This document shows, in pieces, positions 13,585-36,247 of a DNA stretch of 64,000 nt; the stretch's first letter is position 1, and every line of letters starts with the position of its first letter. Source of the stretch: Isoetes taiwanensis. Its lineage: Eukaryota; Streptophyta; Lycopodiopsida; Isoetales; Isoetaceae. The notes under the pieces are model-generated. The model saw nothing but the letters and a program-made list of their open reading frames with translations, made no database searches and was not told the DNA's origin. The position numbers were made by a program, and so were the translations under genes. The stretch is from the NCBI GenBank assembly GCA_021234155.1, contig JAJEKV010000030.1, positions 12,770,718-12,834,717 on the forward strand. Direction: 5' to 3'.

Positions 13585-14323
13585 TGTGACGCACCTAGGG
13601 GGTGGACGAACAAGTCAACGTTTTGAGTCTTAACCATAGGTTAGAAATAATAAATTATAGAAAAGAATAGCAATGGTTGGGAAAACAAGTTGAATACGGT
13701 ATTTATACTATGGTACTATAGATATTTAAAGGAAATAGAGGGAATATCCAAATTGAAATAGCAGAGATAAGAATAGAGAAGATAATTTAGACTTGAAATA
13801 GAAAGATTTCCTATTAATTGAAAAGGGGAGGATATTTCTCTAACTTTAGGATTGCAATATTATCAAAGAAAAACGTCTTTTGTGGATTGAAATTTCTAAA
13901 AAGCTTTTGCGTGCGCCATCAAGCATTGCTATAGAAGAGGAAAATCGGAATTGATGGGTTAACTGGAGCCAAAGATCCATGGAAATCTGTGATGGCTTGG
14001 CCGTCGTAGTTTATTTGCTTGTTTTAGTTGTAAAATGAAGCCGGCTCTGCTTTTGCTTCTCATCCAATCATCTTGCTATCTAAATCATGTCTAGTATTGG
14101 TTACAATGTTTAGAACTGCATAGTCGATTGCTCAGGCCAGCCAGAAGGAGATGTTTTGTTTTTCATGTGCTTTTAAATCGCTGCCAAAGCCAGCAAACCC
14201 GCAGAACCTAATCTTCTGTGTAGGCTTCAACCGGAGTTTATTCATGATTCAGGAAAGACCAAATGTTTCTAAGTAATATTTTGTTATTATTATCTTTATT
14301 TTAATATGAACGTTATCTATGGC
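13585..14323 (+). repeat. Element A, middle LTR, left part
   Basis: TGTGACGCACCTAGGG follows a purine tract (GCGGGAGAAAA). The LTR runs to CTATGGC and breaks where element B begins. The last 49 bp resume at 43125-43173. ATGGC is duplicated at both ends of B (14319-14323 and 43120-43124). Confidence 0.92.
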
Positions 14324-15867
14324 TGTGACGTTCCAGAATAATATACGGTATGAATACGTATATTATACTGACACGTCACTAGTACATGTCGACTCAGACG
14401 ACATGTACACAGCGACCATAAAAGGGAAGTACCCTAGGGTGCGACCCCGTGAACCATTATATTGCACATGTTAAGGCCGCATGTGAATATAATATCTTTT
14501 GCCATGTGGCAATAGCCCATTGACCAAAAGGGCCCAGCCCTAAAATCGTGGGGATAAAGAGACATAAACCCTAAAAGGAATAGGTCGGATTAGAGCAGCA
14601 TTGGACGCCCTTTCGCCTGAACAGTAGCAGAGGAACCGGAATTCCTAGGTTGCAGCTCGATCCAAGACCAGCAGTCTCGAGAACCAGCAGCATGGACGCC
14701 TTCAGAGGAGTGGGAGCCAGCCAAGAAGCGGGTTAGTGGTTGATCCGATAGTTAGATCCGAGTTTTCAGCTCTCATTCTATAGGATTCGTATTCATTCTT
14801 AGCTATAGGCTTAACCCCTACTGACCCTAAGAATAATAGACACTAACAAAGGAACCTAACCATGTATGATTAGGTAGATTAGAATATATGTATTCTATTA
14901 TTTTCAATCCTGTTGTGATGATGTTTTGACATTCTATGCGCCACTCTTGTGTATTGGGAAGGGGGGTAGAGACCCAGAGCCCAAATAGTTGTATGATCCT
15001 AGTTTTAGCCCATTAATTCCCACCACGCGGCCCGTGCATAAGAGCCCACCCGGCCGTGGGTGGCGAGCTAGACCGGCCGACAAGGAAGGGCTTGTCCGAT
15101 CACGATTGATCCCTCCGGTGCGTGGCGGCGGCGGGAACATTGTGGGCTAGGCCTAATACCCCGGGTAATCTGCGTGAGGGGTGGTATGGGCTCGACACCT
15201 CTTGGGTGATGCGCCATCTTCTAGGGGTTCAAGTCGATTATCTGAAGGTGGCTCTCTAGCTCGCCTGTGATTGGCATGAACCTTCGAGGAGAGTGATCTC
15301 CTCCCCGCCTCATCGGAGCTGGGGAGATGCAACCCAAGTAGTAGCCCCTTTGGCTATGAACCCGGCTACGGTCGCCAGCTCCAATACTTTTCAGCCTATC
15401 CGCAAAGTATGCAATGGGAGGGGCGGATGGAGTGGACTACCCAACGACCATGTTCCTATGCCAGCCAAATCCGGTTGCCATGAATTCCGCATGCGCATTG
15501 CTATCCGGAGGCCCAAGCCCGCCGGGCCTTTCCCCATGAGTTTGAGCCTGGGTAGGATTTCCCCATGTTATGTTGATGTACTGATGTGTTGTTGCAGCTA
15601 CTGTGATATGGTGGACCACCCTTCGAGGTGGGTATGTTATTATTGATTTATGTCATGTGCTCATGTGTGTTTACGCTTCCGCAGTTAGATCAATCCCGAG
15701 GGAGACGGGATGAATGACACGTCCATTCTTCCTCGTCGGGTTCTTGGCCACCATCAAGAGCCCGATGTTAGGTGGACGGCCTCACGTCAGCGAGCAGATG
15801 CTGGTTTGAGGGATGATCTCCAGTTTTTATACGATCGGGGCATCGTATATGAGCTGGGGCCGTCACA
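14324..15867 (+). repeat. Element B, 5' LTR
   Basis: About 1544 bp from TGTGACG to CGTCACA, with the inner 7 bp forming an inverted repeat at its ends. Near the 3' end TATACGAT and ATCGTATA form a perfect 8-bp stem (about 15828-15850). Compared with the 3' LTR it lacks about 30 bp near 14577 and has scattered substitutions. ORFs predicted inside it are chance. Confidence 0.9.
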
Positions 15868-15868
15868 A

Positions 15869-15880
15869 TGGTATCAGAGC
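15869..15880 (+). promoter_or_regulatory. Primer-binding site of element B (tRNA-iMet)
   Basis: TGGTATCAGAGC directly after the 5' LTR, complementary to the initiator tRNA-Met 3' end. Confidence 0.9.
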
Positions 15881-16094
15881 TTTGATCTTGGCGTAATCCT
15901 ATAGGAACTAACTAATCTAGACATTCAGTCTTGGAGATAAAAGCCCAAGCACGAACCTCGAGTAGTGGGAAATTTTTTCTTTCCTGGGGTAGAGTTAGTA
16001 ATTATCTAGAATTAGGATAATTAGAGAACATATTTAAGATGAAATAGATAGGAGAAAAGTCTCCTAGGAAAGCCTAATAAATTTTATTGGCCGA

Positions 16095-16166
16095 CACCTC
16101 CAAGGATGCGCCAGGAGCATGTTAGGTCCAGACCTAATTGGTCTCCCGCGCACACTTAGAGGGGTC
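16095..16166 (+). repeat. Leader hairpin 1 (palindromic repeat)
   Basis: The outer arms CACCTCCAAGGATGCGC and GCGCACACTTAGAGGGGTC pair, and an inner near-palindrome TTAGGTCCAGACCTAA has one mismatch at its centre. First of five related copies. Confidence 0.8.
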
Positions 16167-16309
16167 ACCCCATATAGACCCTAGAATTCGGCCTTAGGAA
16201 CCCTAAATTATAAAAGAAAAGATGAAATCCTATTTAAAAAGCTCGAATTAGCTAGAATTGTATGCTAAAACACAGAAAACTAGTAAGTAAAAATTATTTT
16301 TTGGAGCAA

Positions 16310-16380
16310 CACCTCTAAGGGTGCGCCAGGGCATAGTTAGGTCATGACCTAACACCCTCCTCGCGCACCTTAGAGGGGTC
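16310..16380 (+). repeat. Leader hairpin 2 (palindromic repeat)
   Basis: The arms CACCTCTAAGGGTGCGC and GCGCACCTTAGAGGGGTC pair. The inner 16-bp palindrome TTAGGTCATGACCTAA is perfect. Its centre differs from copy 3 (CATG against CCGG) but stays self-complementary. Confidence 0.85.
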
Positions 16381-16521
16381 CCCTAAAAGGACCTCGGAAA
16401 TTGCTCAAAACTTACTCAAAGTATAAAAGTAATGGTAGAATCTTACTTAGAACACTTAAATTAGTGGGAAACGCATGTTAATATGTGTAAATTGGACAAG
16501 TTTAGAACAAAAAAAGGGTAA

Positions 16522-16592
16522 CACCTCTAAGGGTGCGCCAGGGCATAGTTAGGTCCGGACCTAACACCCTTCTCGCGCACTCTTGGAGGGGT
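16522..16592 (+). repeat. Leader hairpin 3 (palindromic repeat)
   Basis: The arms CACCTCTAAGGGTGCGC and GCGCACTCTTGGAGGGGT enclose the perfect palindrome TTAGGTCCGGACCTAA. It lies about 105 bp before the TATA box of the histone-like ORF. Confidence 0.85.
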
Positions 16593-16697
16593 TTGAAGGA
16601 AAATGGTTGAAGAAGACTCCACTTTGATTCAAGGTGGGGAGAATTTCGTCAGCAAACCAACAAAATAACCAATTGGGCCAAACCCTAAAAATTAAAC

Positions 16698-16810: not shown

Positions 16811-17995
16811 ATGGCTAGAAGGAAACAGACCGCTCGTAAGGTAAGCAAAGATGATAAGCCCAGCGCCCAGGTCCTCGCCGCCGAGCAGAAACTCAAAGAT
16901 GCTGAGGAGAAATTGAAGGCCGACATGGAGAGGCGACCTAGGTACTACCGAAATTTGGAAAAGAGGCGGAAGAAAGAAGAAAAAACCAAGAAGAAAGAAG
17001 AGAAGGCAAAGAGAAAGGAGGAAAAGGCCAAGAGGAAGAAGCAGAAGGCAAGAAGGAAAGCAGAAAGAAAAGCCGCAGAAGCCGAAGAAGACCAATGGCG
17101 CGAGCAAAGGACAAAGAGCAGGGAAGAACCCGACAGGAAAGGCAAAAAGGTAATGACAGAAGAGCCCCCGCCTAAGAAGAGGAGGACCTCGGTCGGCGTC
17201 GTCATCGGCGAACGATCCGAAGGCGACCTACCTCCATCCTCGTCTGAAGATACCGGTGATTTGCAGGACTTCTTGGAGGATGTACTTCTAGGAACTGGAG
17301 AATCCTCGCAGAAGCAGCAGAACCCTCATCCTGAGACAGATGAATCCCAAGAGGAGGACCAAATCCCAGCCCAGAACCCGGCCGAAACGCGAGTTGAACT
17401 ACCCCCGCCGTTGCCTCCACCGTTTTCAGAATGGCAAGAGGCAAAGAAGCTGGATGCAGAGAAAGCAGCCGCAAAGAAGGCGAACAAAACGGCCAGGGAC
17501 TCGTACACCTTAGGGCCCGAGAGGAGATACAAGAAAGAGCTAGCAGATTACACTGTATACAAGAAAATGCACGCCGAGTACACTGCATACTACGAGGCAC
17601 ACAGGGTAAAGTATATCGAAGGAGGGCGGCCAACACGAGAGGCATTCCAGCTGAAACCTCCACCAGAGCTTCCGGACCCCCCGAAGAAACCTATGAAAAG
17701 ATCCCGAGACTCCCCGTTTGCGAGAGCCCTGCGAGAAATCCGCCACTTCCAACGGAGTTACGGGTTTCTGATTCCCAGAGCTGCATTCCAGAGATTCGTC
17801 CGGGAGATTTTATGGGACTTTGACCCCAACAAGCGAGTAACTAACGATATGTTACTCGCTTTACAAGAAGCAGCAGAGATAGAAGTCGTGCAACACTTCG
17901 AAGACTCACTGGCATGCACGCTCCATGCAAAAAGAGTCACGCTTCAACCAAAGGACATGAGACTGGCCAAATACATCAAGATGACAGATAAATAG
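16811..17995 (+). CDS. Histone H3-like protein carried by element B
   Basis: Intact 394-residue ORF; the ATG is the first after the TATA box and has a strong plant context (AACAATGGC). Residues 1-10, MARRKQTARK, match the H3 tail at 8 of its first 9 positions after Met removal (one change at H3 position 3), keeping the equivalents of K4, R8 and K9. Residues 25-110 are a Lys/Arg/Glu-rich coiled coil, 119-126 an NLS-like PPKKRR stretch, 130-200 acidic and Pro-rich. Residues 306-394 align to canonical H3 from ALREIR to the C-terminus with no gap, about 43 of 89 identical by eye: ALREIR, LI, FQR-VREI, ALQEA, FED, HAKRVT, PKD. The His and Asp used in the H3-H3' four-helix bundle (372, 382) are kept. 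Loop 1 has H3 length, without the insertion usual in CENH3. It likely enters the nucleus and may join nucleosomes; function is inference. Confidence 0.93.
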   Translation: MARRKQTARKVSKDDKPSAQVLAAEQKLKDAEEKLKADMERRPRYYRNLEKRRKKEEKTKKKEEKAKRKEEKAKRKKQKARRKAERKAAEAEEDQWREQRTKSREEPDRKGKKVMTEEPPPKKRRTSVGVVIGERSEGDLPPSSSEDTGDLQDFLEDVLLGTGESSQKQQNPHPETDESQEEDQIPAQNPAETRVELPPPLPPPFSEWQEAKKLDAEKAAAKKANKTARDSYTLGPERRYKKELADYTVYKKMHAEYTAYYEAHRVKYIEGGRPTREAFQLKPPPELPDPPKKPMKRSRDSPFARALREIRHFQRSYGFLIPRAAFQRFVREILWDFDPNKRVTNDMLLALQEAAEIEVVQHFEDSLACTLHAKRVTLQPKDMRLAKYIKMTDK

Positions 17996-18056: not shown

Positions 18057-18133
18057 AAGGATATATAGTTGTTTAAACGTGCATTGGATTAAGTATAGTA
18101 GTAGTTAAGGAGCAAATGTAAAATTTTGGCCAA

Positions 18134-18204
18134 CACCTCTAAGGGTGCGCCAGGGCACAGTTAGGTCTGGACCTAACACCCTCCTCACGCACTCTTAGAG
18201 GGGT
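18134..18204 (+). repeat. Leader hairpin 4 (palindromic repeat)
   Basis: The arms CACCTCTAAGGGTGCGC and ACGCACTCTTAGAGGGGTC pair. The inner TTAGGTCTGGACCTAA is palindromic except for its centre. It lies after the H3-like ORF and before the second cassette. Confidence 0.83.
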
Positions 18205-18346
18205 CCAGCCAACTGGGCCCTTGATCAGCCACTTACCTGCTCCAAATCAAGTGAATAAGCAAAGAAACTTGCAGTTAAGAAGAAAATAAGTAGGAATTCA
18301 CGTCTTTGAACTTGTTCTTGGCACCCATTAGGCATAGATAGACCAA

Positions 18347-18402
18347 CACCTCCAAGGGTGCGCCAGAGGCCACTTAGGTCCCAACCTAACACCCGGGGTC
18401 CG
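18347..18402 (+). repeat. Leader hairpin 5 (truncated palindromic repeat)
   Basis: CACCTCCAAGGGTGCGCC and an inner TTAGGTCCCAACCTAA are present, but the outer right arm is lost after CACCCGGGGTCC. Confidence 0.7.
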
Positions 18403-18578
18403 ACCTTTCAAGGTCCATAACTTGTGCTAGACATACCCAATTCGGTCAAAATTTGTTGCATTAGAACCCTAAAATTGTATACAATCCATTTCTAGCTCCA
18501 AATTAACCTAGAAACATCAAACTTCATCTCAAAATGCCAAAAGTTTTAGAAACCCTATAAATTTTAGGGTACAAGATC

Positions 18579-18590: not shown

Positions 18591-18699
18591 TTCATAACCT
18601 CTAAACCACACCTATAAAGTTGCTCCTGCGCCCAAGGCGATCTTCCAGCCTCCTTAAGCGCTTCCAGTTCCATTTGATATCGGCAGCACACTCCTCCTC

Positions 18700-20170
18700 A
18701 TGGCTACCTCATCCTTCATCAGCTGGTACAGCGCCTCTCCCCGATGTTAACCTAGTATTCCAAGTTTTCCAGAAAGAATTTGACTTGTCGGCAACCCTGA
18801 ACTCAAACCCGGTTTACCAACAAGTTCTGCAAGAATTCCAAGAGAAAGTAGCTCCTAGCTTGCAAGAAATACCCCCATGCATAGGGTACTTTGTACCAAA
18901 GACTACATTGCAAACAACCCTTAGTCATATGCCCAACATTGCGAAACTGCTGCAGAATAGAACCGAGCGCCTACCCAACTACATGACCCTGAGCAGTAAC
19001 AGAAAGAGATTTTTCTCTTACAACACAGCGTTAGCACTATATTTATTCTATAGGGCCCAAACCGTGGTAGGTGAACCATCAATCCAGCCACTAGAGGTCA
19101 CACCCTTGGACGCAGCAGCAGACGAACAACTACTGCTTGAGTACGAAGAGTCCATAGCGAAATCATCCGAAGAAAGTGAGGACACAGAAGAGGAAAGCGA
19201 AGAAGAAATGGAAGTGGACCCAGAAGAAGAACGCCGAGAAGCAGAACAGGATGTTAGCCGACTCGAAGCTGACAGGAGCACACCGAGGATAGCACAACCA
19301 ATCGGGCTGGGAATAACAAGTCTAGCGCCGATCATAGTCGAAGGGCAGGAATATTTGTTCCTAAACGATATTAAAAACCTTCCCGAATGCAGGGACAGAG
19401 GCTATCGCGTCGACGAACTCCTTCACCTTCTACGGTAGCAGCCGGACTTAGAGGATTTCATCGTCCAAGAAACAAATGACTTTCCAGTTCAAGTAAGGGA
19501 AGCAGCCACATACACAGGACACAACATGTCAGACATCGAAGCCTATAGCACTATCAGAGGCATGATGACGGAAGAACAACTCCCTACAGAGGAGGAGTTT
19601 GTGGCACTCCAAGAGCAGATGGGGATAAGGGGGAAGACAACAAGAGCACTTCAACCAGAATCTTCCTCACAAGGACCATTACCAGCGTTCCTAGGGAGAG
19701 CCACGAACCTAACAAGTGTACGAACGCTCTTCCATGGTTACGAAGAATTAGTTCAAGTACCGGTCGACCAGTATGCATCAAGGCACAGGTCTACCTCAGG
19801 AGCACGGGGAGGAGTACCCGGAGCAGCACTTAAATACTATCTTCCGCTCCTAACAGACGGTAGAATAATAGTATTTCATAAGCTTTTCAGCCCACGTGCA
19901 GAGGAAGCCATCCAGATGCTGATAGCACTATCAGGTTTTGGTATGCACGCACGGCTATCAGAAAAAGTCGACCATGTAATTTTGGTGAAGCGGAGAACGG
20001 CCTTGAGCATTTTCGACTTCGCGGTACCCCACCTTTGACAAGGTCGGTTGGCAGTAACAGCAGCTCATACCTCCGATAGACGGGTCGAAGAGCTAGCCTT
20101 AGCTATCCGAGGGGGATCATCGAGGGATATACTCCGGAACGGGTACAGCCCAAGTGAAGAAATTCCTTGA
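18700..20170 (+). pseudogene. Second leader ORF of element B: acidic protein of unknown family, broken
   Basis: A frame of about 480 codons with its own TATA box and poly(A) signal. The first ATG (MATSSFISWY) is separated from the main frame by a one-base shift in a C run near 18741. Two in-frame stops interrupt the rest (TAG 19436, TGA 20036) and the final stop is at 20168. The N-terminal half reads VNLVFQVFQKEFDLSA and RKRFFSYNTALALYLFYRAQ. A very acidic tract follows (SSEESEDTEEESEEEMEVD). The C-terminal part includes LKYYLPLLTDGRIIVFHKLF. I recognise no family. Acidic tracts are common in histone chaperones, and the neighbour is a histone-like ORF, but that link is speculation. It could also be a distant gag-type protein. 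Confidence 0.6.
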
Positions 20171-20250
20171 GGATCACCCATCCCATCAGTAAATCAATGT
20201 AACGGAAATCATGACTATTGTATTAAGTTAATATATATCGGCTATATATT

Positions 20251-20256
20251 AATAAA
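20251..20256 (+). terminator. Poly(A) signal after the second leader ORF
   Basis: AATAAA in a very AT-rich stretch about 80 bp after the last stop of the acidic ORF. Confidence 0.45.
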
Positions 20257-20334
20257 AATATAAGATCTTTTGAATTGCATTTTAAATGTCTTTTTGATAT
20301 CTTTGCCTTAACAATCATATCATTCAAACTCTTA

Positions 20335-21580
20335 ATGCAACCAACAAAAGAACTCATGATAAATGGTGCCAATGCAATATGTGCAGCTAGAACAGCCAGG
20401 AATGTGGAAATTGAATTCCAAGCCCAAGGCGAGCACACACCATCGGGACAATTCCAGCCTCGGAATCTCTTCGAAGAGTACTATGCACCGACACCGGAAG
20501 AGGAAATCTCGCAGATGAGGTCAGATCTGCAAGAAATAAAAGCCATGTTGGCCAGCAGAGGGAATAACAGGCAGGACCAGAACGTGCAACCCCCAGAGGC
20601 CCGTTCTCAACACAAGGGAAAAGAAAGAAAGAGGAGTCGACGCAGATCTTCCAGCTCCAGCTCTTCAGACAGCTCCGACTCAAGCTCTGAGTCTGAGAAA
20701 GAAACAGATAGGACCGCCCAAAGGGAAGAAAGAATAAGGGCAAGACAGCCAAGCCAATCCGACTACCAGAAAAAGGTCGACTCGGCCTTGAGTAATGTTT
20801 GGAAAGCCCGCAGTTTTCCGGCGAAAACAGATCAGGACTGGAAGCCGAAGCATGGCTAGACGAGATGAGCGAATATGGAAATGCTTACGGTATGAAGGAT
20901 AAGGATAAGGGCAGAGTAGCCACCGCTAACCTATAAGGGGCAGCCCGCATTTGGTGGAGGGGTATGCCAAAGCCCACGGGATGAGCAGGGACAAAAAGTT
21001 CGCAAAGGCTTTCAAACAACACTATGTGCCCAGAGAGCACAAGTGCCATCAGATGCAAGCCTTCCACAGGCTGCAACAGGGGAACAAGTCCGTACAGAAA
21101 TATACGGAGGAGTTCATGAGGTTGAGGCTTTATGTGCCGAAACTCAGTGAGAGAAGAGCGGTGGAAGGCTATGTGGAGGGCCTGAATGAGGACCTACGGA
21201 AACTAGTCAGGGCCCTGAATCTGCGCTCAGTATCGGAGGCCGAAGCAAAAGCCATAAGCTTACAAGGATCGGGAACCCAGAATAGTGAACCCTAGCAGTG
21301 GTATGATAAAGGAAAAGGGTATGGAGGCCAGAGCCCGAGAGCAACCAGTCCGTCACCTGCCAAGACGCCATACTCGGGAAACCAATGGAAGCAGCCAGAG
21401 AAAAAGCACGTCAGCTTTAAAGATAAAGGACAAGGGGGAGGCTCAAACTACTCAAAGACAGTCAAGCAGTTCCTCAACTCCATTCCGAAGGAAAAACGGC
21501 AAGAATGCATAGAAAAGCAGTTGTGTTTCCGGTGCTTCTAGCCGGGGCATAGAACACACAACTGCCCGTTCGTGATGAAT
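20335..21580 (+). pseudogene. Element B Gag (broken)
   Basis: The start MQPTKELMINGANAICAA is the best ATG after the poly(A) signal. It has an Arg/Ser-rich stretch (KRSRRRSSSSSSSDSS), then, after frame changes near 20850 and 20940, the capsid-like core WLDEMSEYGNAYG, FAKAFKQHYVPREHK, FHRLQQGNKSVQKYTEEF and YVEGLNEDLRKLVRAL. The zinc knuckle C-x2-C-x4-H-x4-C is at about 21527-21564 (CFRCF, then PGHRTHNC), with a TAG codon at 21539-21541 inside it. Gag forms the particle that packages RNA. This copy cannot make the full protein. Confidence 0.82.
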
Positions 21581-22190
21581 GCAGCACTTGCAGAGATGGG
21601 AGGTTGGGAGACCCCGCCAGAAGAAGAGGAGGACGAAGGACGCGACTTTATCCATGGTGAGTGTCATATCTTTGCCGCCATAGATACAGAAAGCGCAGAG
21701 AGCCAGTATCAAGTAATATCCACAATTGGTAAGATAGCCGCAAAATCTTTTATAGTCCTCATAGACTGTGGCAGTTCCCACAACTTTGCGTCACCAAGGA
21801 TGACCGAAATGCTAAAGTTGAAGACAGTGAAGTCTAAGCCCAGGCCAGTAGTGTTAGCTAGCAGAGCCATCAGGCACACTGTCGGCAAGAGGGTGAATTT
21901 CAATATAGACTTACCTGGCATCAATATTGAAATGGGGGCAGAGATCATGAACATCGGAAAATATGACCTCATCATAGGTATGGAATACCTCAACCCGGCA
22001 AAAGCCCAAATAGATTGTGGGGAGCGAAAGCTGAAGCTAACGGCGCCCAACAGGAAGATTATAGAGATCACAGGTAAGGAAGTAACACCTATAATGCAAT
22101 GCATGTCGAGTAAGAAGTTACTTAGATGCATGAAAAGGCAGCAAGTTGCATACATCTTCAAATTAGAACTTGCCGAAGAAGAAGCGCCAG
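21572..22190 (+). pseudogene. Element B aspartic protease
   Basis: Retropepsin region in frame with the end of Gag. FIVLIDCGSSHNFAS (active site near 21764) has Asp-Cys-Gly-Ser where Asp-Ser/Thr-Gly is usual, followed by IIGMEYLNPAKAQIDCGERK, the second typical block. It would cut the Gag-Pol polyprotein. The Cys at the active-site position is unusual and may lower activity. Confidence 0.82.
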
Positions 22191-23620
22191 AGGATAAAGA
22201 AGATAAATCAGTAAGCAAGCTACCCAAGCAGGTAGCCAAGCTAATAAAGGAGTTCCATGACTTGTTCCCCGATGAAATCAAGGAGCTTCCGCCATATAGA
22301 GGAGTGGAGTGCGAAATTGCACTCGAACCAGGCATCAAACCCACAAGTAAGGCACCACATAGAATGACGGCCCATGAACTATCAGAATTGAAGAAGCAAT
22401 TGCAAGAGTTATTAGACCTAGGGTTCATAAGGCCTAGTGTCTCTCCGTTCGGAGCCCCCATCTTATTCGTCAGAAGAAGGACGGAAGCTTGAGAATGTGT
22501 ATTGACTACCGTCAATTAAACAAACACACCATCAAGAACAAGTATGCCTTACCCAGAGCGGATGATCTGATGGATCAGCTACAAGGTGCCAGAGTCTTCT
22601 CCAAAATAGACTTAAGGTCTGGATATCATCAAATCAGAATCAAGGAGGAAGATATCCACAAAACGGCGTTCCGAACAAGATATGGCCACTATGAATTCAC
22701 AGTGATGCCATTTGGCCTATCTAATGCCCCAACAACGTTCATGAGACTCATGAACGATATCTTTACGGGAATTCCTTGACACATTTGTTATCGTGTTCTT
22801 CGATGACATTTTGGTGTATAGCAAGTCCCTAGAGGAGCATATTCAGCATTTGAGAAGGGTACTTGAGAAGCTGAGAAGATATCAGCTTTATGCGAAGTTG
22901 TCGAAATGTCACTTCGCCACCGAAAGAGTGGAATACTTGGGGCATATTATATCAGCAGACGGCATCTCCACAGATCCTGCAAAGATCCAAGCAGTGATTG
23001 AATGGCCAGCACCAAAGAACATACACGAGGTGAGAAGCTTTTTGGGCTTAGCAGGATATTATAGAAAGTTTGTCAAGAACTTTGCTAAGATAGCAGCACC
23101 TTTGAGGGACCTCACCAAGGCAGAAAAGATAAAAGACTGGGTGGCACATTGGCAAAAGAAGGCTCAAGCAGGATTTGAGAAGTTGAAGGAAGCCTTAACA
23201 ACCGCCCCCGTCTTAACATTGCCTGATCCAGAGAAGGACAAGCTAGTTGCAATTGATGCTAGCAAGATTGCGACGGGAGCAGTCTTAATGCAAGAAGAAA
23301 GAGTCGTAGCATACGATTCACGGAAGATGAACGACGCAGAGACTCGTTACCTGACACATGATCAGGAGCTATTGGCAGTGGTAAGAGCTTTGAAGATCTG
23401 GAGACACTATCTATTGGGAAGGAAGTTCCAATTAGATACTGATCATCAGAGTCTACAATACATCTTCACGCAACCATTATTGAATTTAAGGCAAAGAAGA
23501 TGGATGGAGTTCCTGGAAGAGTACGACTTCAACATCGTGTACAAGCCAGGGAAACTCAATGTGGTTGCAGATGCTCTCTCGAGACATCCCCTAACAACAA
23601 GAGTGCATTGCAATGCCATA
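22191..23620 (+). pseudogene. Element B reverse transcriptase and RNase H
   Basis: RT blocks are clear: [80 protein letters not shown] and the catalytic FFDDILVYS at about 22797. RNase H follows ([48 protein letters not shown]). Frameshifts near 22485 and 22779 split it into three frames, so this copy is not autonomous. It copies element RNA into DNA in cytoplasmic particles. Confidence 0.9.
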
Positions 23621-24965
23621 TCAACACTCACCAGTGAGTTTGGCAAGAAAATAGAAGAAACGTTGCCAACGGACAAGGACTTTCAGGAAGTATGGGCAAG
23701 CCTTTCTAAAGAGGCCAGAACGGACAAAGAGAGAGAAACCTTCAAACATTTTAAGAAGGAGGGAAATCTCTTGTACTATAAAAATAAGTTGTGCGTCCCT
23801 GAATCATCTGGAGTCAGAAGGTTGATCCTCCATGACACCCACAACAGCCCAATAGCCGGCCATGCAGGTTTTACGAAAACCTACTTCAAAATAAGAAGTA
23901 GTTACTATTGGCCAGGCATGAAGAAGCAGATAGCAAGATATATACGCGAGTGTCAGCTATGCCAGCAGACCAAAGCAGAGCAACTACGAATTCAAGGGGC
24001 ATTAGAGCCATTGCCAGTACCAAACTCCAAGTGGGAGATAATCAGCATGGACTTCATTACAGGGCTCCCTAGAACCATAAGGGGCAAAGACACCTTAATG
24101 GTAGTAGTCGACAAATTGTCGAAAATGGCATGCCTTGCAGGAGCACGACACGGCTTTAGACACGACTGTGTTATTTACAAAGGAGATTTTTAGACTCCAT
24201 GGGATGCCAAGAGAAATAATCTCTGATAGGGATTCGAAGTTCATGAGTGCATTTTGGCAGGATCTCTTCAGCACCATCGGAACGAAATTATCAATGAGCT
24301 CGGCTTATCACCCTCAGACAGATGGGCAGACGGAGCGCACCAATCGGATACTTGAAGATATGCTGCGGAATTATGTCTGGAACAAGCAATCAAAGTGGGA
24401 TGACTTCATCTACTTGGTTGAGTTTGCATACAATAGCACCAAGCAAGAGTCATCCCAAATGTCGTCGTTTATGATCAACTACGGCTATCAGCTTGACACC
24501 AGACACTTGGCACAACCCTGTGTCCAAGGTTCCCAGCAGATGTTAGCCGAGATGCAACAATTGGTTGAGGAGGTGCGAGGATACCTCTTAGCAGCAAGAA
24601 GCCGGCAAAAGAGCATAGCTGATCGGCACCGAACAGTAAGGGAGTTCAAAGTAGGGGACAATGTTTGGCTGAAGATAAAAGTCAAACAAGCAAAGCTCCG
24701 CATCGGCAATTGCAAGAAGCTTGCTCCAAGGTGGGCTGGTCCATTCAAAAATGTCAAAAGAGTGGGCAACCAAGCCTACAAATTAGACTTACCAGCACAC
24801 CTGAAGATCCATAGAGTCTTTCACGTACCGAGTTTACTGGAATTAACGGACGATCAGCTTGAGATTGTTCCTGAGGTTCTTCTCGACCAATCCTATAAGA
24901 AGACGAGAAGATCTCAATTTCTCCAGTACCTTGTGAAATGGACGCACTTACCAGTGGAGGAAGCT
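23621..24965 (+). pseudogene. Element B integrase with truncated chromodomain
   Basis: Zinc-binding HHCC ([22 protein letters not shown]), then the core with the catalytic residues in [22 protein letters not shown] and HPQTDGQTERTNR, a one-frame shift near 24150, the GPF module (RWAGPFKNVKRVGNQAYKL) and the start of a chromodomain (FLQYLVKWTHLPVEEA). The frame is cut at 24966 by the inverted LTR of element C. Chromodomains of this class bind methylated H3 tails and steer integration to heterochromatin. This gives the chromovirus assignment. Confidence 0.9.
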
Positions 24966-25937
24966 TGTGACGGCCCCAGCTCCTATACGATGCCCCGATC
25001 GTATACAAACTGGAGATCATCCCTCAAACCAGCATCTGCTCGCTGACATGAGGCCGTCCACCTAACATCGGGCTCTTGTTGGTGGCCAAGAACCCGACGG
25101 GGAAGAATGGACGTGTCATTCATCCCGTCTCCCTCGGGATCGATCTAGCTGCGGAAGCGTAAACACACATGAGCACATGACATCAATCAACAATAACATA
25201 CCCACCTCGAAGGGTGGTCCACCATATCACAGTAGCTGCAACAACACATCAGTACATCAACATAGCATGGAGAAATCCTACCCAGGCTCAGACTCTTGGG
25301 GAAAGACTGACGGCTTGGGTCTCCTGGATAATGCTGCGCATGTAATTCATGGCAAATGGATTTGGCTGGCATAGAAACGTGGTCGTTGGGTAGTCCACTC
25401 CATCCGCCCCTCCTGTGCATACTTTGCAGATAGGCTGAAAAGTATTGGAGCCTAACCGTAGCCTGCCGGGTTCATAGCCAAAGGGGCTACTACTGGGTTG
25501 CACCTCCCCAGCTCCCGATGAGGCAGGAGGAGATCACTCTCCTCCAGAAGGTTCATGCCAATCACAGGCGAGCTAGAGAGCCACCGTCAGATAATGACTT
25601 GAAACCCTAGAAGATGACGATCACCCAAGAGGTGTCGAGCCCATACCCTGCCCTCACGCAGTGCCAGGGTATTAGGCCTAGCCCACAATGTTCCCCTACC
25701 GCCGCCACGCACCGCAGGGATCAATCAGAATCGACAAGCCCTTCCTTGTCACCGGTCTAGCTCCGGGCTACCCCACCAAAGGGGTTTTATGCATAGGCCG
25801 CATTAATTGGGAATTAATGGGCTAACTATGATCATACAACTACTTGGGCTCTGGGTCTCTACCCCCCTTCCCAATACACAAGAGTGGCGCATAGAATGTC
25901 AAAACATCATCAACAGAACTGAACATAACAGAATACA
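24966..25937 (-). repeat. Element C LTR (relative of B, inverted), left part
   Basis: Starts TGTGACGGCCCCAGCTCC, the reverse complement of the end of the B LTR, and follows it closely to GAATACA. It then breaks where element D was inserted. The remaining LTR is at 38667-39248. No clear TSD for C is visible: its left side cuts the B chromodomain and its right side is rearranged. Confidence 0.85.
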
Positions 25938-26531
25938 TGTTTGGGGTCTGGGTTCGGGAACTCCTGGAAGACAGCCCTCTGTGAGGACCCGTGGATCTAA
26001 CAGGAGAGTCCGGGAGACTATGTCACGCGGGATTTGCAAGAAGAGAAGAAGAAGAAGAAAACAGAACAAATGAGAGGAAAATGATAAGCTTCTTTGATAT
26101 CAATGATGAACATACATGAGCTCTCGCAATAGAGAGAAAAAACTGAAAGGAGACAAGACTCAAAACTCATCTAAAAACTCATGTGCTAGCTCTACTCATA
26201 TATATAGTACAATGGCCTTTGGCCCAATATAGACACTCGATCGATTCCTGCGGGCCGACTCTCGGAAGGAGGCCTGATTTGCAGGAATGTTGGCGGTGCC
26301 TCTTGAAGTGCCTAGAATCACGCTGACGCCGACGCGGGCGGTGACGAGCAGCCGTCACTTGTCCGAAGCGGGCGCCTCTTGTTGACGGGACGCAGTTTTG
26401 ATCCGCGTGGTCTCATTGCTTGGTCTTCTCTGAGCCTTTGATGGCTGACCCGGGCTGGGGAGGATCCTTGAGCTTGACCTCGGTCTGTCAGATGCATGAA
26501 TAGTCCTGCACTCAGAGGCATGTAACTAACA
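25938..26531 (-). repeat. Element D, 3' LTR (left side)
   Basis: TGTTTGGGGTCTGGG to TAACA. The first 300 bp match the other LTR almost base for base; the last 300 bp differ by many small changes. It is followed by CTCCCCCACCAAAC, the reverse of a purine tract. Confidence 0.9.
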
Positions 26532-26589
26532 CTCCCCCACCAAACGACACACTCGAGTGAAGAAAAGGAGGAAGTGTTTCGAGGGCGGA

Positions 26590-29488
26590 AGCCATCTGCT
26601 CGAAAGTGATCCTCACGGAGTGAGGACGGGCACCATTATGGTAATCAAGCTAATGAGATCCCGACGACGGTTTGAAGAGCGGGAGGAGTGTTTTGGCCAA
26701 GGGCGTGATCTGCATCAATAAGAAAGCGAGAGCGCACCATGTCTTTCAAGGGCAAAGATGGGCGCCTCAAGAAATGTACCGACATTCCATGAGGAGACAG
26801 TCTCCGAGGCCAAAGGCACCGATTAACCGGCATTCGGATTGCAAAGTGAAAAATGGGACGCCGATTTAAGGAGCTTAGCAAAATGCATTTGAGAGCAGCA
26901 CAAAACCCGCTTGAAGATGGATCAAGGATCGTGAGGTGGTGGCATTCTCGCAAGAAGGTGTCAAGACCATGGAGCGCATCCGCCGGCCGCTGCCAACCAC
27001 GCCATTAGCAATGTAGATCCAATTCGTGGTGGTATCCAGAGTGGCACTTTCTTCCCAATGTGAGCGGGCGAACAAAACGTGGATCCCAACGGAGATCCGT
27101 CGAGATCTGAGGTGGAGTCCATCCCGCATGACCATCCATGACCTTGGTCCAAAAAGGGAGGCGCCAATCGAAGTCAGAACCCGGGCGTGGGAGGTACGCC
27201 CAGGGAAGCATAGGGAGAAGGAACCATGCCCGTGGGTTGGGTTGAGCGTCTCCCTGAATTGATCGACAAGATCCGGATCAAGAGCTTGACACCAACGATC
27301 CCAAAGAGAAGCAGAGAGTTGAGAGTTGACAGAGGGCTATCCCATCCCGTGGGGACCGCCTTGCTATCCAACGAGCTCAGAATTGATTGTATCCGCGAGG
27401 TGTCTTTGCATATAAATTTGTGCATAGGGAAGATCCCCTGATGTCCTAGATACTCCCTTATTCGTTGCGGCGCCGGCTTGCCGAGAGATAAATGATTGGC
27501 AAGCTCGTGCATGTACTCCCGATGAAGAGTTTGGGTCCGGAAAGCAGATCCGCAAGATATGGATTGTTATCCCCGGCACCCATTGCATGGTGGGGTCACC
27601 CCGAAAAGAGTCGGGCGTGGCCCATTTCAAGTGTTCCCCGTATCACCCCAGATAGAAATCATGAAATATGTAAGCCATAGGTGAACAACTCAAAGTGATA
27701 AAGTCCGGATCGGGCACGCTGTATGAGATCAAAGACCACAAGGGCACAAAGACAACCCTTTGTCTTCAATGGAGAGTTTCGCCAAACCAAGAAAATCTGC
27801 AGACCGCCAGGGGAATATCCACAGTCCATCGGCCGCATGCCACTGGGAAAGGAAGAGGTGGCGGCGAGCAACCACATAATCGTGATAGCGGTGAAGGAAC
27901 GGGAAGTCAAAAGGCATTCGTTAAGAATGGCGGTATGGCCGCCAAGTTTTGCTTGAGCCTCATCGCCAGATCAATAGCTTGCCGTAGCTGTTGTTCAAGA
28001 TCACGATCCGGGTTGTCCCGCTCTAGCAAAGAAGGCGCGGATCGGGTCACGGACCCGCTTCGGAGAAGTGTTGACCGGGAGGAGGATTTCCTGAGTATTG
28101 AGACGGGCACGGCAATCTCGGCCATCCAAGATCTTCTCGCTTCTTGCACTGTAAGCCGATCTTGAAGAGAGGTGAGCCGAGAGGTCTGGTAGAAAGCCGA
28201 GCCGCCAAGGAGGCAACTTGAGCGCCCCGCTCGTAAGGTTTTGAACTTGAGTGCTGAAATTTTCACAAAGTTCGAGTACAAGGCGTTGAGCTTAGCAATA
28301 TCTCAAGGCCCTTGGTACTCGTGAGAGCTGCTTTGGACTTGTTGTGCTCCAATAAATTCTGAATTTCTGATTGAGCCGAGCCTGTTGATCCGCAAGTTGG
28401 CTGACTTGATCTTGTGCACTTTTGAGATCCGTATGAGCCCTGTAAGAGAGCTTCGCAGGCTTGTCTTGAAGTTTGGCCTCCAAAGTTGCAACTTGGGCAA
28501 GTGGCGCTTTGAAGGTCCTGATGGACCGCATCGAGGCCTCTAGTGCCCGCTGAACCCCGGCCATAAGAGCTTTTGGGATTCTTGTAACTTGAGAGCAGCA
28601 GCTTGAGCATCCTGCTGATACTGATACAACAACTGACGAGGGTGTTGTGGTGGTGGAGCCGGCTGTTGCCTGGTTTGTGATGTTTGGGAAAGATGGTGTG
28701 AACCGGATGGTGTAATGAGGAGGAGACAAAGGACATGGGTGTGCGGACTTTGGACATGACCAGGGAAGAAGGGCGGAAGTGCCAGCTTTGGTTAGTCATT
28801 GGAAGGAGCTACCGAAAGTGGAATTTTGAGAATTTTGTGGTGTGGGAGGGAAGTAATGACGGATGAGGGCTTGAAAGTGGCCTCCCATAGAAACTTCAGA
28901 AATGGAAGTGGCACCCCGAAGGCGGTCCATTTCTTGGAGAAGACGATAGAACATCATTTGGGGCCAATCTATGTGGTGGTTGGAGTGTGTAGCAGTGATG
29001 ACCAGGTTATAGAAAGGTTTATTGATATGGGTGTTCTTGATGTAATACCAAGGAACTTGCGCCACGTAAATTTAACAAAGGTTTCGTGGAGGCTTGTCGA
29101 TATTGGTCGACGATGGACATTGGCATGATAAGGAGGTGCACCAAACTCTCGCGGACATCGAGATCCCGTATGGCGCATCATGATAAACAAGGTGTGCAAG
29201 GGAATATGAAATACCTCAGAAATCAAATGTTGAGTCAGCCGAAATGGTGGTGCCATCGACCACGCTGGTGTAGCCTTGGCGTCTGTTAACGATATTGGCG
29301 ATGAACCGCTTCACCTGGTCGATTTGAGCCGGAAGTTCCATTTGAGAGAATTCAGAAGCTTGTGTCGTTCAGCGACATCTTTAGTTGGGCCAACAAGGGC
29401 TTCACGGAAAGTGGGCGTCAAGAAGGATACAGATGCAAAAAGAGCCGGATCCTTGGGAGCAGTAGCTTGAAGTGTAGAAAATCTTGGG
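26590..29488 (-). pseudogene. Extra 3' ORF of element D, unknown protein (env position), decayed
   Basis: Downstream of integrase on the same strand, a degenerate coding stretch of several hundred codons begins MAAPRFSTLQATAPKD at 29488. Joined over stops it shows FREALVGPTKDVAERH, FVKFTWRKFLGITSRTP, then a Pro/Gln-rich and coiled-coil-like part (AQVATLEAKLQDK, SAQDQVSQLADQQARL), then LEQQLRQAIDLAMRLKQN. Athila-type elements carry an envelope-like ORF at this place, but I see no clear signal peptide or membrane segment and recognise no family. It may be a captured or element-specific gene. Confidence 0.5.
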
Positions 29489-29998
29489 GCAGCCATGGTA
29501 ACGATTTGCGTAAACGAAGAGTGATTCAAAGGCGGAGGACTAAAGTCGAAAGCACGGAGGACAAAGGCTAGAAGAACTAAAAAGGTTTTTTTAGGGCGCA
29601 TAACCGAGGCTTAAGAGGTATGAAGAGGGCTTAAACCGAGCCCGTTGATGGTGCCAGGTGTCAAAAGATGCCAAGAAGTGTATTGAGAGGCAAAAATTTG
29701 GCTAAGTCCCAAAAACGTAAGGGAGAAGCAATGAACGGTGAGGATGAGATGTGAAAGAAGGATCGGATGTGACAGGTGGGCAAAGGACACACATTAATGT
29801 TTGACGGGCGTGAAAAGAAGAAATTGCATTCAATGCTGGCAACTCGAAGTGGGATATCATTAAAAGGAATGTGTCAGAAGGTACCATGGCTAGATATGCG
29901 CGGGAGAAAAGATTCTCATTTTAGAAACAAATTTTGCATTGCAAACACGCTGGCGATTTGTGTGATTGGTCCACGCCGACAAGGAGTTCCTCGATTGG

Positions 29999-30007
29999 CT
30001 ATATAAG
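29999..30007 (+). promoter_or_regulatory. Putative TATA box for the antisense ORF of element D
   Basis: CTATATAAG lies 35 bp before the ATG at 30034 on the strand opposite to D's genes. Confidence 0.4.
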
Positions 30008-30033
30008 ACGAACGGAGTAACGGAAGGCATCCG

Positions 30034-30300
30034 ATGGGCGCCAAGATGGCTGCCGCTAGTTTGAACGAGGACCGCACTATGCCCACGAACTGTCAGGAAT
30101 GGATTACCTGCAAGATGAATTGTCTGAACCTCTGGCGCTGCCACAACCGTGGCATTCGAATGGACGGTTGGTGTGCCGGGATGGCTGAACATCCCGACCC
30201 GAAGACCAACGGGATGGAGGTGGTTCTGCACCTTCGCTGGGATCCTGAGCAGAACCTCTACCATCTCCTCCGCATCACCTCTGCTCCGAACCCGGAGTAG
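30034..30300 (+). CDS. Antisense ORF in element D, Cys-rich 88-residue protein, unknown
   Basis: An ATG ORF on the plus strand, opposite to D's gag-pol, preceded by a TATA box and GC-richer than its surroundings. It contains NCQEWITCKMNCLNLWRCHN and GWCAG, a Cys/Trp-rich cluster that could bind metal. Several Tat-branch elements are known to carry an antisense ORF between integrase and the 3' LTR, and the position fits. The product is not recognised; it may be a chance ORF. Confidence 0.4.
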   Translation: MGAKMAAASLNEDRTMPTNCQEWITCKMNCLNLWRCHNRGIRMDGWCAGMAEHPDPKTNGMEVVLHLRWDPEQNLYHLLRITSAPNPE

Positions 30301-30446
30301 AGGGTTTTTCCTCTTAGGACTTAGTAGATAGGGCTCGAGTCCGTTTTTTTGTATATAGGGTGCCCATATGAAATATTTGGGCTGCGCCCACATTTTGTAA
30401 AAAAATCTCCACTATAATATAATATGCCGCCTTTCTAGTCACTTTC

Positions 30447-32091
30447 TGTGACGTTCCAGGGGAATATACGCTATGCATACGTATATTCCTGGACCCGTCA
30501 CTATACAAGTCTATCTTCATAGCCTTGTATACCATAGATTGTGGCACTAGGGGGCGTGACTAAGTTATTCATATAACTTAGCCAACCTTAGGTTAAGACC
30601 ATTTTCCACGTGGCCTTAACCTATTGGGCACCCGCCACACGAGACTCACCCGATTGGTGCCACGTGGCATCTTAGGTGGACCTAACTTATATAGGCTGGA
30701 ACCCTAACCCTAGACCTCTTTCCAGCCCTAGCACCCAGAGACTCATCTACTGCTCAAAACCCCGCCAACATCGCTTTGCCGCGGGCATAGTCTGGTGCAG
30801 CAGCCCCCGCAGGGTAGACTCGTTCTTGGAGCAAGAGCAGCATCACGTGAGTCGAAGACCATGGAGGCACACGGATCTGGAGGGAGAGCATCAGGAGCAG
30901 GTATGTAGGGTAGTAGTTGTGATAGCTCATTTGGAATTAGCATTCCAGATGTGCTAGTATCTTGTATCTAGAGTAGAGCCATCCTAGAACCCGTATTCAA
31001 CATCTTGAACCCTAATCAATGAACCCTAACCATTAGTTAGATTGTATGATTAGGTTAAGATGTTCTTCTTATGATCATTCTTAGGATACGATGATTATGT
31101 GATGTTGGTTGATCATGTTTGCTCCTCTTGTATTGGGAAGGGGGGTAGAGACCTAGGGCCATATGTAGTATGCTCCTAGAGTAGATCCCTTAGTTCCTAT
31201 TAGATGCGGCCTGTGCATAGGAGCCCACCAGGCTATCGAGGCTATCTTTGTGACTCAGCACCACATAACGGGCTAGAGGGAATGTGGAGGGAGGATCCCC
31301 GAAAGTGGGGGGCGAGAGGGGGATCCCATAGTGGGCTAGGCTTATGGTCGGTCACTTCGTGTGGGCCGAGCATGGGTCCGACACCTCCTGGGGCAATGGT
31401 GCCGCCCTGCCTCTCGAGAGCTGCAAGTGTCGGCTTGGCTCTCGTTTTGGGGGGTTAAGTCGGGTACGAATCGTGTGTCGCCACGATTCTCTAGCCGCCC
31501 ACGGAACCTCTAGACCCTGGGGAGGGGAGATGCAACCCTTCCTGCCTCATCGGACCAGGGAGATGCAACCTGGAGTAGTCCCGATGGGTGATGCCATGGG
31601 ATTGCGTATCCGGAAGGCTAGAGTCATGCCAGAGCCTGATTTAGCCCATCTGCAAAGTATGCACAGGAGGGGCGGATGGAGTGGTCAACCCTAGCCATTG
31701 TCTTATGCCAGCCCTCGCCATTGTTATGACTCGGTCTGCTCTATCTTGAGACCTATCCAGTCAGTCTACCTCCTTATGAGTCGGAGCCATGGGTAGGAGC
31801 TCTCATGTTTTATGGTTTATGATTATCTTCTTTGCTCATATGGATATGTGATGGACTACCCTTCGAGGTAGTATGTTGTATTGTTATTGCTAGTTCTGAC
31901 GTTGTTTATGCTTCCGCTGTGATAGGAGCCCATAGGGGAAGGGCGCGCAAGACACCTTCGTGTCCCCTTTCCGCACTACGGGAGTTCCATAGTGCGGGAT
32001 AGACGGAGGGCCTGTGCGGTTGTTGAGCCGGACGGGGGATTTCTTGCCGAGTGTACGGCCGGGTGCCGTATGTTTAGCAGGGAGCGTCACA
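30447..32091 (+). mobile_element. Element E: solo LTR inserted in D's integrase gene
   Basis: TGTGACGTTCCAGG to GGAGCGTCACA, 1645 bp, with perfect TSD CTTTC (30442-30446 and 32092-32096) and no internal region, so it is a solo LTR left by LTR-LTR recombination. It is related to the B LTR in parts (GGGGGGTAGAGACCTA, CAGGAGGGGCGGATGGAGTG) but more diverged. CCGCACTA and TAGTGCGG form a perfect 8-bp stem near its 3' end (31972-31998). Confidence 0.93.
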
Positions 32092-33300
32092 CTTTCTGTG
32101 GTGTTTGCTTCTTGAACTGTATCTGTTTGTTGATGTTCGCTTTCTGTGTGATGAAATGTTTTGAGACGAAAACCATTAACCAATGTAGGTAATGGAGTGC
32201 CATCTAACTCTGCCAGTTGGAAAACGCTTGGTCTAACCACTTGAACAATTTGATAAGGGCCAAGCCAACGAAACTTGAGTTTACCCGAAAAATTTTTGTA
32301 CCTGGAATCATAAAGAAGAACCAAATCGCCTTCTTTAAATGTTTTTGTCTTCAGACGTTTGTCATGTAAAGATTTTTGCAACTGTTGTCCATGAAGAACA
32401 CGAATATAAGCATCCCTTCAAAGTTCATCCAACTGTTCTAATTGATAGACCCTTTCTTTGAGTGCAGCAGGTGGATTATGAGCAGTAGCCAGTTGAAAAC
32501 GGAGTGTTGGAAGGATGTATTCAAACGGCATGAGAGCTTCCTGACCATAAACCAATTTAAAAGGAGTGTGACCGGTAGCAATCTTGAAACAAGTATTGTA
32601 GGCCCAAAGAACGAGAGGGAAGTTTTGTCTCCGCCAAATGCAATGCGGGAAGCGCCACAAATTTTCTTGAGAATGGTGACCGAGTTTTGTTGGTGCTTTC
32701 TGCCAAACCATTACCTTGAGGATAGTAAGGTGTGCTCTTGTGATGATGTATCAGGAGATAATCCGTCAGCTCCTTGATAGTATGGTTGATGAAATGGACA
32801 CCACGGTCACTGACCAGCTCCGTGGGGCAGCCGAATCGCGTGATAATTTGTTGATAGAGGACCCTAGCTGTGCTTGCCGCAGTGTTGTGCGGAAGTGCAC
32901 AAGCTTCCGCCCATTTGGTAAGCGAGTCGGTGAGAACCGAGAATGTAACAGACGCAGGTGTGTGCAAGTAGAGGAGGATCTATAGGTCCCACAAAGTCCA
33001 TTCCCCATTTGCTGAGCGAAGTGGCGTGGCGACCGGCGTCAAGGGGAAGCGTCCGGCGGGCGTGGGGGCGTCCCCCCACCGGGCAAGCATCACACGCGGC
33101 GGGCGGCGTGAGCATCTTTGAAGAGCGTGGGCCAATAATACCCGGCTAGAAGGATTTTTGCGCGTCGTGGTGTCACCATGAAAATGACCACCACCTAGCC
33201 CTTGATGAGCTTCTCGAACAATATCTGGAACTTCATGAGGTAGAACATAGCGTCGAAGGATGGTGTCCTTACCCTTTTTGTAGAGATGTCCTGCAACCAT
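32092..33300 (-). pseudogene. Element D integrase
   Basis: The minus strand shows the zinc-binding region (VREAHQGLGGGHFHGD, then ACDAC), the core ([38 protein letters not shown]) and the C-terminal module (GDLVLLYDSRYKNF, FRWLGPYQIVQV). Several frames are used, so it is broken. The last codons continue across solo LTR E: without E the frame reads TESD and stops at TAG 30435-30437. Confidence 0.85.
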
Positions 33301-33487
33301 GGTGTAGTCACGGACCTCTCCTGAGAAATTGATGGCGACGGGATTGTCGCTTGGCAGGAGAGAGCGTCTCGTCTTCGGGTGGAAGAGCACCGTGAGGAGG
33401 TAACGCTGAAAATCATGGAACCAATGTGGTGTTGCCGTTACTAAAAAGAGCCGAGCATCGGGAAAGGCACGAGACTCGGTTGAGGGA

Positions 33488-33953: not shown

Positions 33954-33979
33954 GCCCGTGTGGATTCGTCACCGTGAGT

Positions 33980-34690: not shown

Positions 34691-34696
34691 GTCAAT

Positions 34697-35954: not shown

Positions 35955-36247
35955 TATTGGGATACTGGTGAGAGCGTGGAGGTTGAGATGTGGAAGGTGT
36001 GTCTTGTCTTTGTTGAGCTCGTGGTGGTGGCATGAACATTTGCCAATGTCGCGGCCTTCGCCAAATTTTGCATGAGGTTCAAAATGCTTTGGCTAACTTT
36101 TGGCATGACATGTGGCATGAGCTTCTCCAAGTCGGGTGCAAAGTGAACCTTTTTTTCGTCCTCATGAGGAATGGTGTCAACCGCAAAGGCAGGTTGCGTG
36201 CCATTCGAATAATGGTCAAGGGACGGATGCCTTGGTGCGGCATGAAA

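Follow-up and report, generated by a model that had tools for sequence, protein, structure and literature searches.

A histone H3-derived protein encoded within a Ty3/Gypsy LTR retrotransposon family of Isoetes taiwanensis

Results and Discussion

An LTR Retrotransposon With Two Additional Open Reading Frames

The window analyzed here comprises 64,000 nucleotides of the genome of Isoetes taiwanensis (assembly GCA_021234155.1, contig JAJEKV010000030.1, positions 12,770,718 to 12,834,717 of the forward strand), and all coordinates below refer to it. The window includes a host-type subtilase gene in two open stretches (403-2505, + strand), a host-type gene for a 774-codon PPR protein (4420-6741, - strand), and a copia-type element (47315-59691) that has end repeats with 98.4% identity and that also holds a non-LTR-like reverse transcriptase (RT) and a DUF4283 region. 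A 2431-bp tandem repeat (11154-14323 and 43120-45694) was the target of the insertion studied here, an element belonging to what is denoted family B. Its features are as follows.

14319..14323: target-site duplication ATGGC, left, identical to 43120-43124
14324..15867 (+): 5' LTR, TGTGACG...CGTCACA, 1544 bp, paired with the 3' LTR
15869..15880 (+): primer-binding site TGGTATCAGAGC, next to the LTR end
16092..16168 (+): leader hairpin 1 (folding, copies)
16307..16383 (+): leader hairpin 2 (folding, copies)
16519..16595 (+): leader hairpin 3 (folding, copies)
16811..17995 (+): ORF1, H3-derived protein of 394 aa with an H3-like tail, charged linker, and H3 core (frame, Pfam, PDB, copies, dN/dS)
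16814..16843 (+): H3 tail motif, ARRKQTARKV in the window copy (comparison of copies)
16862..17680 (+): linker, a charged coil with a KKRR cluster and acidic and proline-rich parts (comparison of copies, pN/pS)
17726..17992 (+): H3 histone-fold core, alpha-N to alpha-3 (Pfam, PDB, alignment, AlphaFold2, Foldseek)
18131..18208 (+): leader hairpin 4 (folding, copies)
18344..18420 (+): leader hairpin 5, weaker, -24 kcal/mol (folding, copies)
18605..20035 (+): ORF2, with an acidic stretch and one in-frame TAG at 19436-19438; also in the sister lineage
20227..21541 (+): gag region, broken, with Retrotrans_gag at 20930-21292 (Pfam) and a CCHC-like stretch identified by eye
21542..24998 (+): pol, comprising protease, RT, RNase H, integrase, and a partial chromodomain (Pfam); frames broken
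24960..40842 (-): LTR pieces of family B on the minus strand, from later nested insertions (repeat comparison)
41393..41554 (+): 3' internal end, with the purine tract GGGTGGGGAGAA before the 3' LTR (sequence)
41555..43119 (+): 3' LTR, 1565 bp, paired with the 5' LTR
43120..43124: target-site duplication ATGGC, right, matching the left 5 bp

The carrier of ORF1 is an LTR retrotransposon, with paired LTRs ending in TG..CA, a target-site duplication, a primer-binding site that we take to pair with initiator Met tRNA, and a purine tract. The two LTRs are separated by a K2P distance of 0.050 over 1,527 aligned sites. Features are arranged in the order hairpins 1-3, ORF1, hairpins 4-5, ORF2, gag, protease (PR), RT, RNase H, integrase, and partial chromodomain, and the order PR-RT-RNase H-integrase identifies family B as Ty3/Gypsy. 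An earlier reading made from the letters of the window (hereafter, the sequence-only reading) had named the element a chromovirus; that name depends on a chromodomain match (PF00385, E = 0.0013) that is partial, cut by a nested insertion, and reaches 19.0 bits against a curated cut-off of 25.1. Between the chromodomain and the 3' end of the element lie insertions of related elements on the minus strand. Within this nested region (24960-40842, - strand), one LTR piece is split by a further element with repeats at its ends (25938-38668), which has a minus-strand gag match. The sequence-only reading had further claimed that the element captured the histone ORF, and the position of ORF1 between LTRs with a target-site duplication, after the primer-binding site and before gag, supports this, as does the same anatomy in other copies.

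The leader hairpins are ~77 nt long and four of the five fold at -36 to -41 kcal/mol. Their starts are spaced by 215, 212, 1,612, and 213 bases, which is ~213 nt except across ORF1, and it therefore looks as if the histone segment was set into a hairpin array with a period near 213. Only one base pair in the hairpins exhibits a two-sided change, and a search of Rfam at gathering scores over 14324-25000 gave no match. ORF2 (~477 codons, with one TAG in the window copy) had no significant match in Pfam, and sister-lineage frames that match it often run 500-550 codons. TATA-like and AAACCCTA-type motifs are present upstream of ORF1, which may have a promoter of its own. When the sequences preceding ORF1, ORF2, gag, and the LTR were compared, no shared promoter sequence scored above the best of 100 shuffles. 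Third codon positions in ORF1 are poor in T (0.12); in this ORF1 resembles ORF2 and pol (0.16-0.18) but differs from the PPR gene in the window (0.34), and this was counted in favor of ORF1 belonging to the element.

In the window copy, gag and pol are broken by stops and frame changes, and our own reading of the stretch from ORF2 to pol (18605-24998) revealed about seven disruptions. It had been pointed out from the sequence that ORF1 is intact despite the broken gag and pol, and this observation is correct. However, an ORF of 1,185 bases would escape all damage at that rate of disruption with a probability of 0.27. The intact state of a single copy is thus weak evidence, and the evidence for maintenance comes from other copies. 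A simulation of post-insertion decay based on LTR differences, which gave a probability of 0.0006, was set aside, since with its indel rate more breaks are predicted than gag-pol shows.

ORF1 Combines an H3-Like Tail, a Long Linker, and an H3 Core

ORF1 is a single open frame of 394 codons. The Pfam Histone profile matched residues 291-389 with high significance (E = 3.2e-22) and H3 chains in the PDB matched with E = 4e-21, in agreement with the description in the sequence-only reading of an intact ORF that ends in an H3 fold. The motif ALREIR starts where that reading had placed it, at residue 306 (base 17726), and the gapless identity of about 48% to canonical H3 that it had counted is close to the values obtained here, which are 45 of 89 positions for canonical H3 of Nymphaea (with no gap) and 44 of 88 for the host's own H3. 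ORF1 was rejected as a canonical H3 or H3.3, given that close identity to host H3 is absent (44/88). By profile and sequence, ORF1 belongs to the histone H3 superfamily.

An AlphaFold2 model generated from 22 aligned sequences comprises four helices in H3 order (mean pLDDT 76, pTM 0.50), and its best Foldseek matches were chains from nucleosome entries (44-50% identity, TM about 0.58) that are H3 by their chain letters. The ORF1 core retains every one of the 11 alignment columns that do not vary among 23 other H3/CENH3 rows, and the changes that the core has undergone are at variable sites, in a pattern that none of 20,000 permutations reached. Among the contact positions considered, the core is identical to H3 at 9 of 13 DNA contacts and at 7 of 8 positions of the H3-H3' bundle. 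Changed positions include R63P, K79D, F84V, L100V, and L103H, which make it uncertain that ORF1 can pair with H4 and DNA. When the core was made to drift neutrally to 51% identity in simulation, stops averaged 2.2 per run and were lacking in 10% of runs, such that the absence of stops alone is weak evidence.

The likeness to H3 had earlier been limited to the core. While the assignment of the core stands, an H3 tail had been missed: the N-terminus of the window copy is MARRKQTARK. We counted this region in 27 copies, the aligned subset of 31 (window copy and L009-L038) that remained after omission of L009, L011, L035, and L038, where the frame is cut short or the start is absent. ARTKQTARK is present in 21 of the 27 and the other six depart from it; the R that the window copy carries in place of T (ARRKQTARK) was found in none of the 26 other counted copies. 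Between tail and core lies a linker of ~280 residues that has no counterpart in nucleosomal H3 and that contains RRPRYYRNLEKRR in 26 of the 27 copies. Linker residues 120-304, when compared to 5.8 billion proteins, gave no match at E ≤ 10 among 1,036 candidates. A search with the whole ORF1 protein scored 7,997 candidates (those sharing the most words), with the best 120 of 379 matches listed, and a search with the core gave 25 matches. All protein matches listed were via the H3-type core, with identities of at most 57% except for one 56-residue fragment (72% identity over 32%).

Copies of ORF1 Share the Anatomy of Family B

Screening of the host genome (1.658 Gb, 1,110 contigs) revealed at least 105 places that match ORF1, including that of the window (105 scored of 40,122 first-look candidates), and these were spread over 59 contigs. 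By our own reading, 30 of the 105 listed places are nearly full length and have no internal stop. To these data we added context for 20 other copies, 18 of which had been listed as stop-free, meaning that they were mostly picked for an open ORF1. All 20 have hairpins before and after ORF1, an LTR end is found upstream in 18 (the exceptions being L010 and L026), and ORF2 or gag pieces are found downstream in 18 (none in L019 and L021). A primer-binding site with two or fewer mismatches adjoins the LTR end in 15 of the 20. Among ten further copies that were fetched, the core is disturbed in L029, and L035 and L038 are without a proper start.

ORF2 was scored at 150 of 8,484 candidate places, and these comprised 70 that are family-B-like (≥ 66% identity) and 80 from a sister group (≤ 61% identity). 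The sequence-only reading had looked to further family B copies with the same ORF, and such copies exist: an ORF1 match was identified 1-10 kb upstream of 46 of the 70 family-B-like places, with 37 of these at 2.3-2.9 kb. The other 24 had no ORF1 among the places listed, which may be due to loss, absence, or an ORF1 outside the places scored. Among the places listed, ORF1 was upstream of none of the 80 sister-group places; the sister group may be without ORF1, or ORF1 may be too diverged there for the scored list. Among 150 listed protease matches, ORF1 was identified 2.5-12 kb upstream of 21 of 40 with ≥ 87% identity (the window's uncounted) and of 1 of 109 with ≤ 82% identity. Given the presence of ORF1 near family-B-type ORF2 and protease, and its near-absence at the diverged ones scored, the histone ORF marks family B.

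ORF1 Has Been Under Purifying Selection

Pairwise dN/dS was determined for the 19 copies, including that of the window, that can be read through at least 370 codons without a stop (from 21; L009 and L011 were dropped), yielding 171 pairs. These copies were mostly picked for an open ORF1, a choice that excludes stops but not amino-acid changes. Median dN/dS was 0.124 for whole ORF1, 0.149 for the linker, and 0.055 for the core, at a mean dS of 0.70, 0.76, and 0.55, respectively, and the comparison across copies that had been suggested from the sequence thus indicates purifying selection. Pooled pN/pS (with 95% intervals from a codon bootstrap) was 0.078 (0.046-0.121) for the core, 0.069 (0.025-0.141) for residues 25-60, 0.176 (0.06-0.39) for the tail, and 0.376 (0.291-0.483) for residues 131-235.

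When all 21 copies were considered, median dN/dS was 0.128 for ORF1, 0.129 for RT1, 0.112 for gagC, 0.185 for ORF2b, 0.332 for ORF2a, 0.338 for PR, and 0.383 for RT-IN. Broken frames inside the aligned stretches have probably raised the last of these figures. Constraint on whole ORF1 is similar to that on RT1 and gagC, and the ORF1 core is under more. On a fixed tree, change at core codon positions 1 and 2 relative to position 3 was 0.069 on internal branches and 0.306 on terminal branches. The corresponding values for the linker were 0.244 and 0.302, and the contrast is therefore strong in the core only. The core was under purifying selection while the element was mobile and decayed after insertion, which is the pattern expected of a protein that is needed for mobility and free to decay once inserted.

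In terms of dS, ORF1 is correlated with RT1 (r = 0.69), ORF2a (0.47), and ORF2b (0.31), and weakly so with PR (0.23, p = 0.054) and RT-IN (0.14, p = 0.15). Long co-inheritance of ORF1 with the rest of the element is supported in part, and recombination may have occurred. Family B is a captured-domain retrotransposon in which the extra ORF is selectively kept across copies.

Host H3 Genes and a Second H3-Bearing Family

A search of the host genome with P0135, a protein used here as a plant CENH3 row although its source names it only Histone H2A/H2B/H3, returned H3-type frames at its best 150 scored places, with no host CENH3 among them. All 12 host loci fetched (L039-L050) are H3. These 12 genes carry AQEF at a position where plant H3 usually has AQDF. 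The same search also gave many frames of 420-500 codons with an H3 core. A second family, denoted F2, encodes a protein of 409-420 aa that comprises an unrelated N-terminal part and an H3 core (four read, L051-L054); this core is near-canonical, with 79 of 90 positions identical to host H3. F2 was identified at no fewer than 102 dispersed places (scored, of 10,733 candidates) and, given its copy number and dispersal, we infer that it is a mobile element. Pairwise dN/dS among the four F2 sequences was 0.10-0.17, and that of the core was 0.02-0.03 where dS is near 1 (three pairs) and 0.07-0.21 among the three closer pairs. ORF2 has no significant similarity to the F2 N-terminal part and, among the places listed (102 F2 by 149 protease), there was one F2 and protease neighbor within 30 kb, on the opposite strand.

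How an Element-Encoded H3 Might Act

ORF1 has an H3 fold and an H3 tail, is found inside an LTR element in many dispersed copies, and has experienced purifying selection. It is almost certainly an H3 variant that is owned and selectively maintained by one Ty3/Gypsy LTR family in I. taiwanensis. Deposition in chromatin is a tentative proposal for its mode of action, which we rate at somewhat under an even chance; toward the explanation as a whole, that of a maintained element H3 variant acting in chromatin, we lean slightly. The ORF1 protein would enter the nucleus by virtue of its KKRR cluster, would pair with host H4 via largely kept dimer and four-helix surfaces, and would then be incorporated into nucleosomes or tetramers, either on element DNA or on target chromatin. 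Chromodomains in general read the H3K9 segment. Since the ORF1 tail, which has the K4 and K9 positions, holds this segment and the integrase has a chromodomain-like end, element-made H3 could mark element or target chromatin for the element's own integrase, such chromatin being recognized by the integrase chromodomain and integration being steered as a result. Alternatively, chromatin that contains ORF1 may change or dilute the marks that silence the element. A more far-reaching version, in which self-made nucleosomes of ORF1 and host H4 are read by the element's integrase and F2 represents independent uptake of H3 within a recurrent plant strategy, is speculative and rather doubtful.

ORF1 could also work off the nucleosome, either with a tail that baits host enzymes or readers of H3K4/K9 or as a basic protein that binds element RNA or cDNA in the manner of a chaperone. 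Room for such roles is left by the changed H4-facing residues (L100V, L103H) and by the long, basic linker, and residues 25-60, with RRPRYYRNLEKRR in nearly all copies, are constrained like the core (pN/pS 0.069). However, the constraint on the core (11 invariant columns, dN/dS 0.055) exceeds what a bait peptide or generic chaperone would need, and we regard an off-nucleosome function as unlikely, if worth keeping in mind.

The Source of the Histone

It is also conceivable, though unlikely, that ORF1 is a captured CENH3 that acts as a CENH3 mimic, for example by reaching or altering centromeric chromatin. ORF1 was compared to three plant CENH3 rows, of which two are provisional sequences and the third is P0135. 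Like these, ORF1 has an H3-type fold and residues such as LIP, RxT, and LLALQEAAE. One-sided matches of the core numbered 14 for plant CENH3 and 4 for H3, in a comparison of three CENH3 rows with one H3 row that itself favors CENH3, and a first tree grouped ORF1 with plant CENH3 and metagenomic rows (88/80). However, support for a position beside CENH3 dropped to 58/14 in a tree with more family B copies, and family B was placed apart, on a branch of 1.29, once host H3 and F2 were added. In AU tests, a grouping of family B with CENH3 was not rejected (p = 0.46 in two data sets), nor was a grouping with animal CENP-A (p = 0.21) or with H3 (p = 0.23 and 0.29). With host H3 and F2 rows included, the H3 grouping was rejected (p = 0.003), and a grouping with F2 was likewise rejected (p = 0.004).

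The structure of the protein bears on the same question. Loop 1 of ORF1 is gapless relative to H3 and lacks the greater length typical of CENH3: each of the three plant CENH3 rows exceeds it by at least one residue. ORF1 further differs from plant CENH3 in its H3-type tail and long linker. The tail argues for an H3 source and the core residues argue for a CENH3 source. The presence of ORF1 copies on 59 contigs, in turn, stands against a CENH3 mimic.

A host H3 gene that was transduced and has since drifted as a neutral passenger is highly improbable. LTR elements do capture host genes (PMC7264820, PMC13317346), but the copies examined contradict neutral drift, both in their median dN/dS (core, 0.055; linker, 0.15; mean dS, 0.55-0.76) and in the contrast between internal and terminal branches. 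Separate insertion of an unrelated host gene into this one element can be practically dismissed: although a possible promoter of its own and the 24 of 70 family-B-type ORF2 places without a listed ORF1 upstream would fit it, the anatomy of the 20 other copies, all of which have hairpins before and after ORF1 and 18 of which have an LTR end upstream, contradicts it.

Comparison to Known Systems and Significance

Plant chromoviruses (see also PMC9289625) resemble family B in having gag, the order PR-RT-RNase H-integrase, and a chromodomain-like end; family B differs in that gag is preceded by two additional sense ORFs, of which the first encodes a histone. The AlkB elements of Phalaenopsis, as described in the same paper (PMC9289625), are likewise multicopy plant Ty3/Gypsy elements with a host-derived extra ORF. 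They carry an RNA demethylase, whereas family B carries a histone, and their AlkB-type 2-ODD domain was proposed to act against host control. A screen of 121 angiosperm genomes described there identified 15 extra domains in elements, and no histone is among the nine of these that section 12 allows to be counted by name. Charophyte and dinoflagellate retrotransposons with DNA methyltransferases (PMC5890265) represent repeated capture of a chromatin gene with key residues kept, similar to family B, although the captured gene is a DNMT rather than a histone; in that text, the word histone has a single occurrence, in the title of a reference. Core histones are also found in the genomes of giant viruses and a bracovirus (PMC9145170), which are DNA viruses, unlike the retrotransposon family B, and the strings "retrotranspos" and "retrovir" are absent from the main text of that review. 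The word histone is absent from the available main text of papers on additional ORFs (PMC7264820), gene capture (PMC13317346, a 2026 review), and giant transposons (PMC6431247). The titles and abstract openings listed in searches of the open-access PMC literature yielded no report of a retrotransposon-encoded histone.

Histones are among the most conserved of host proteins, and a retrotransposon that conserves one would, if this is true, represent a new route for mobile DNA into chromatin. ORF1 suggests that the element uses a self-made part of chromatin to help it persist or spread. Several questions are thereby made testable, namely whether elements set their own chromatin state, how a chromodomain integrase chooses its sites, and how a histone behaves with about 280 residues between its tail and core. 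F2, as a second dispersed family bearing H3, suggests that the association of H3 with mobile DNA in I. taiwanensis was no freak event, if F2 proves to be an element.
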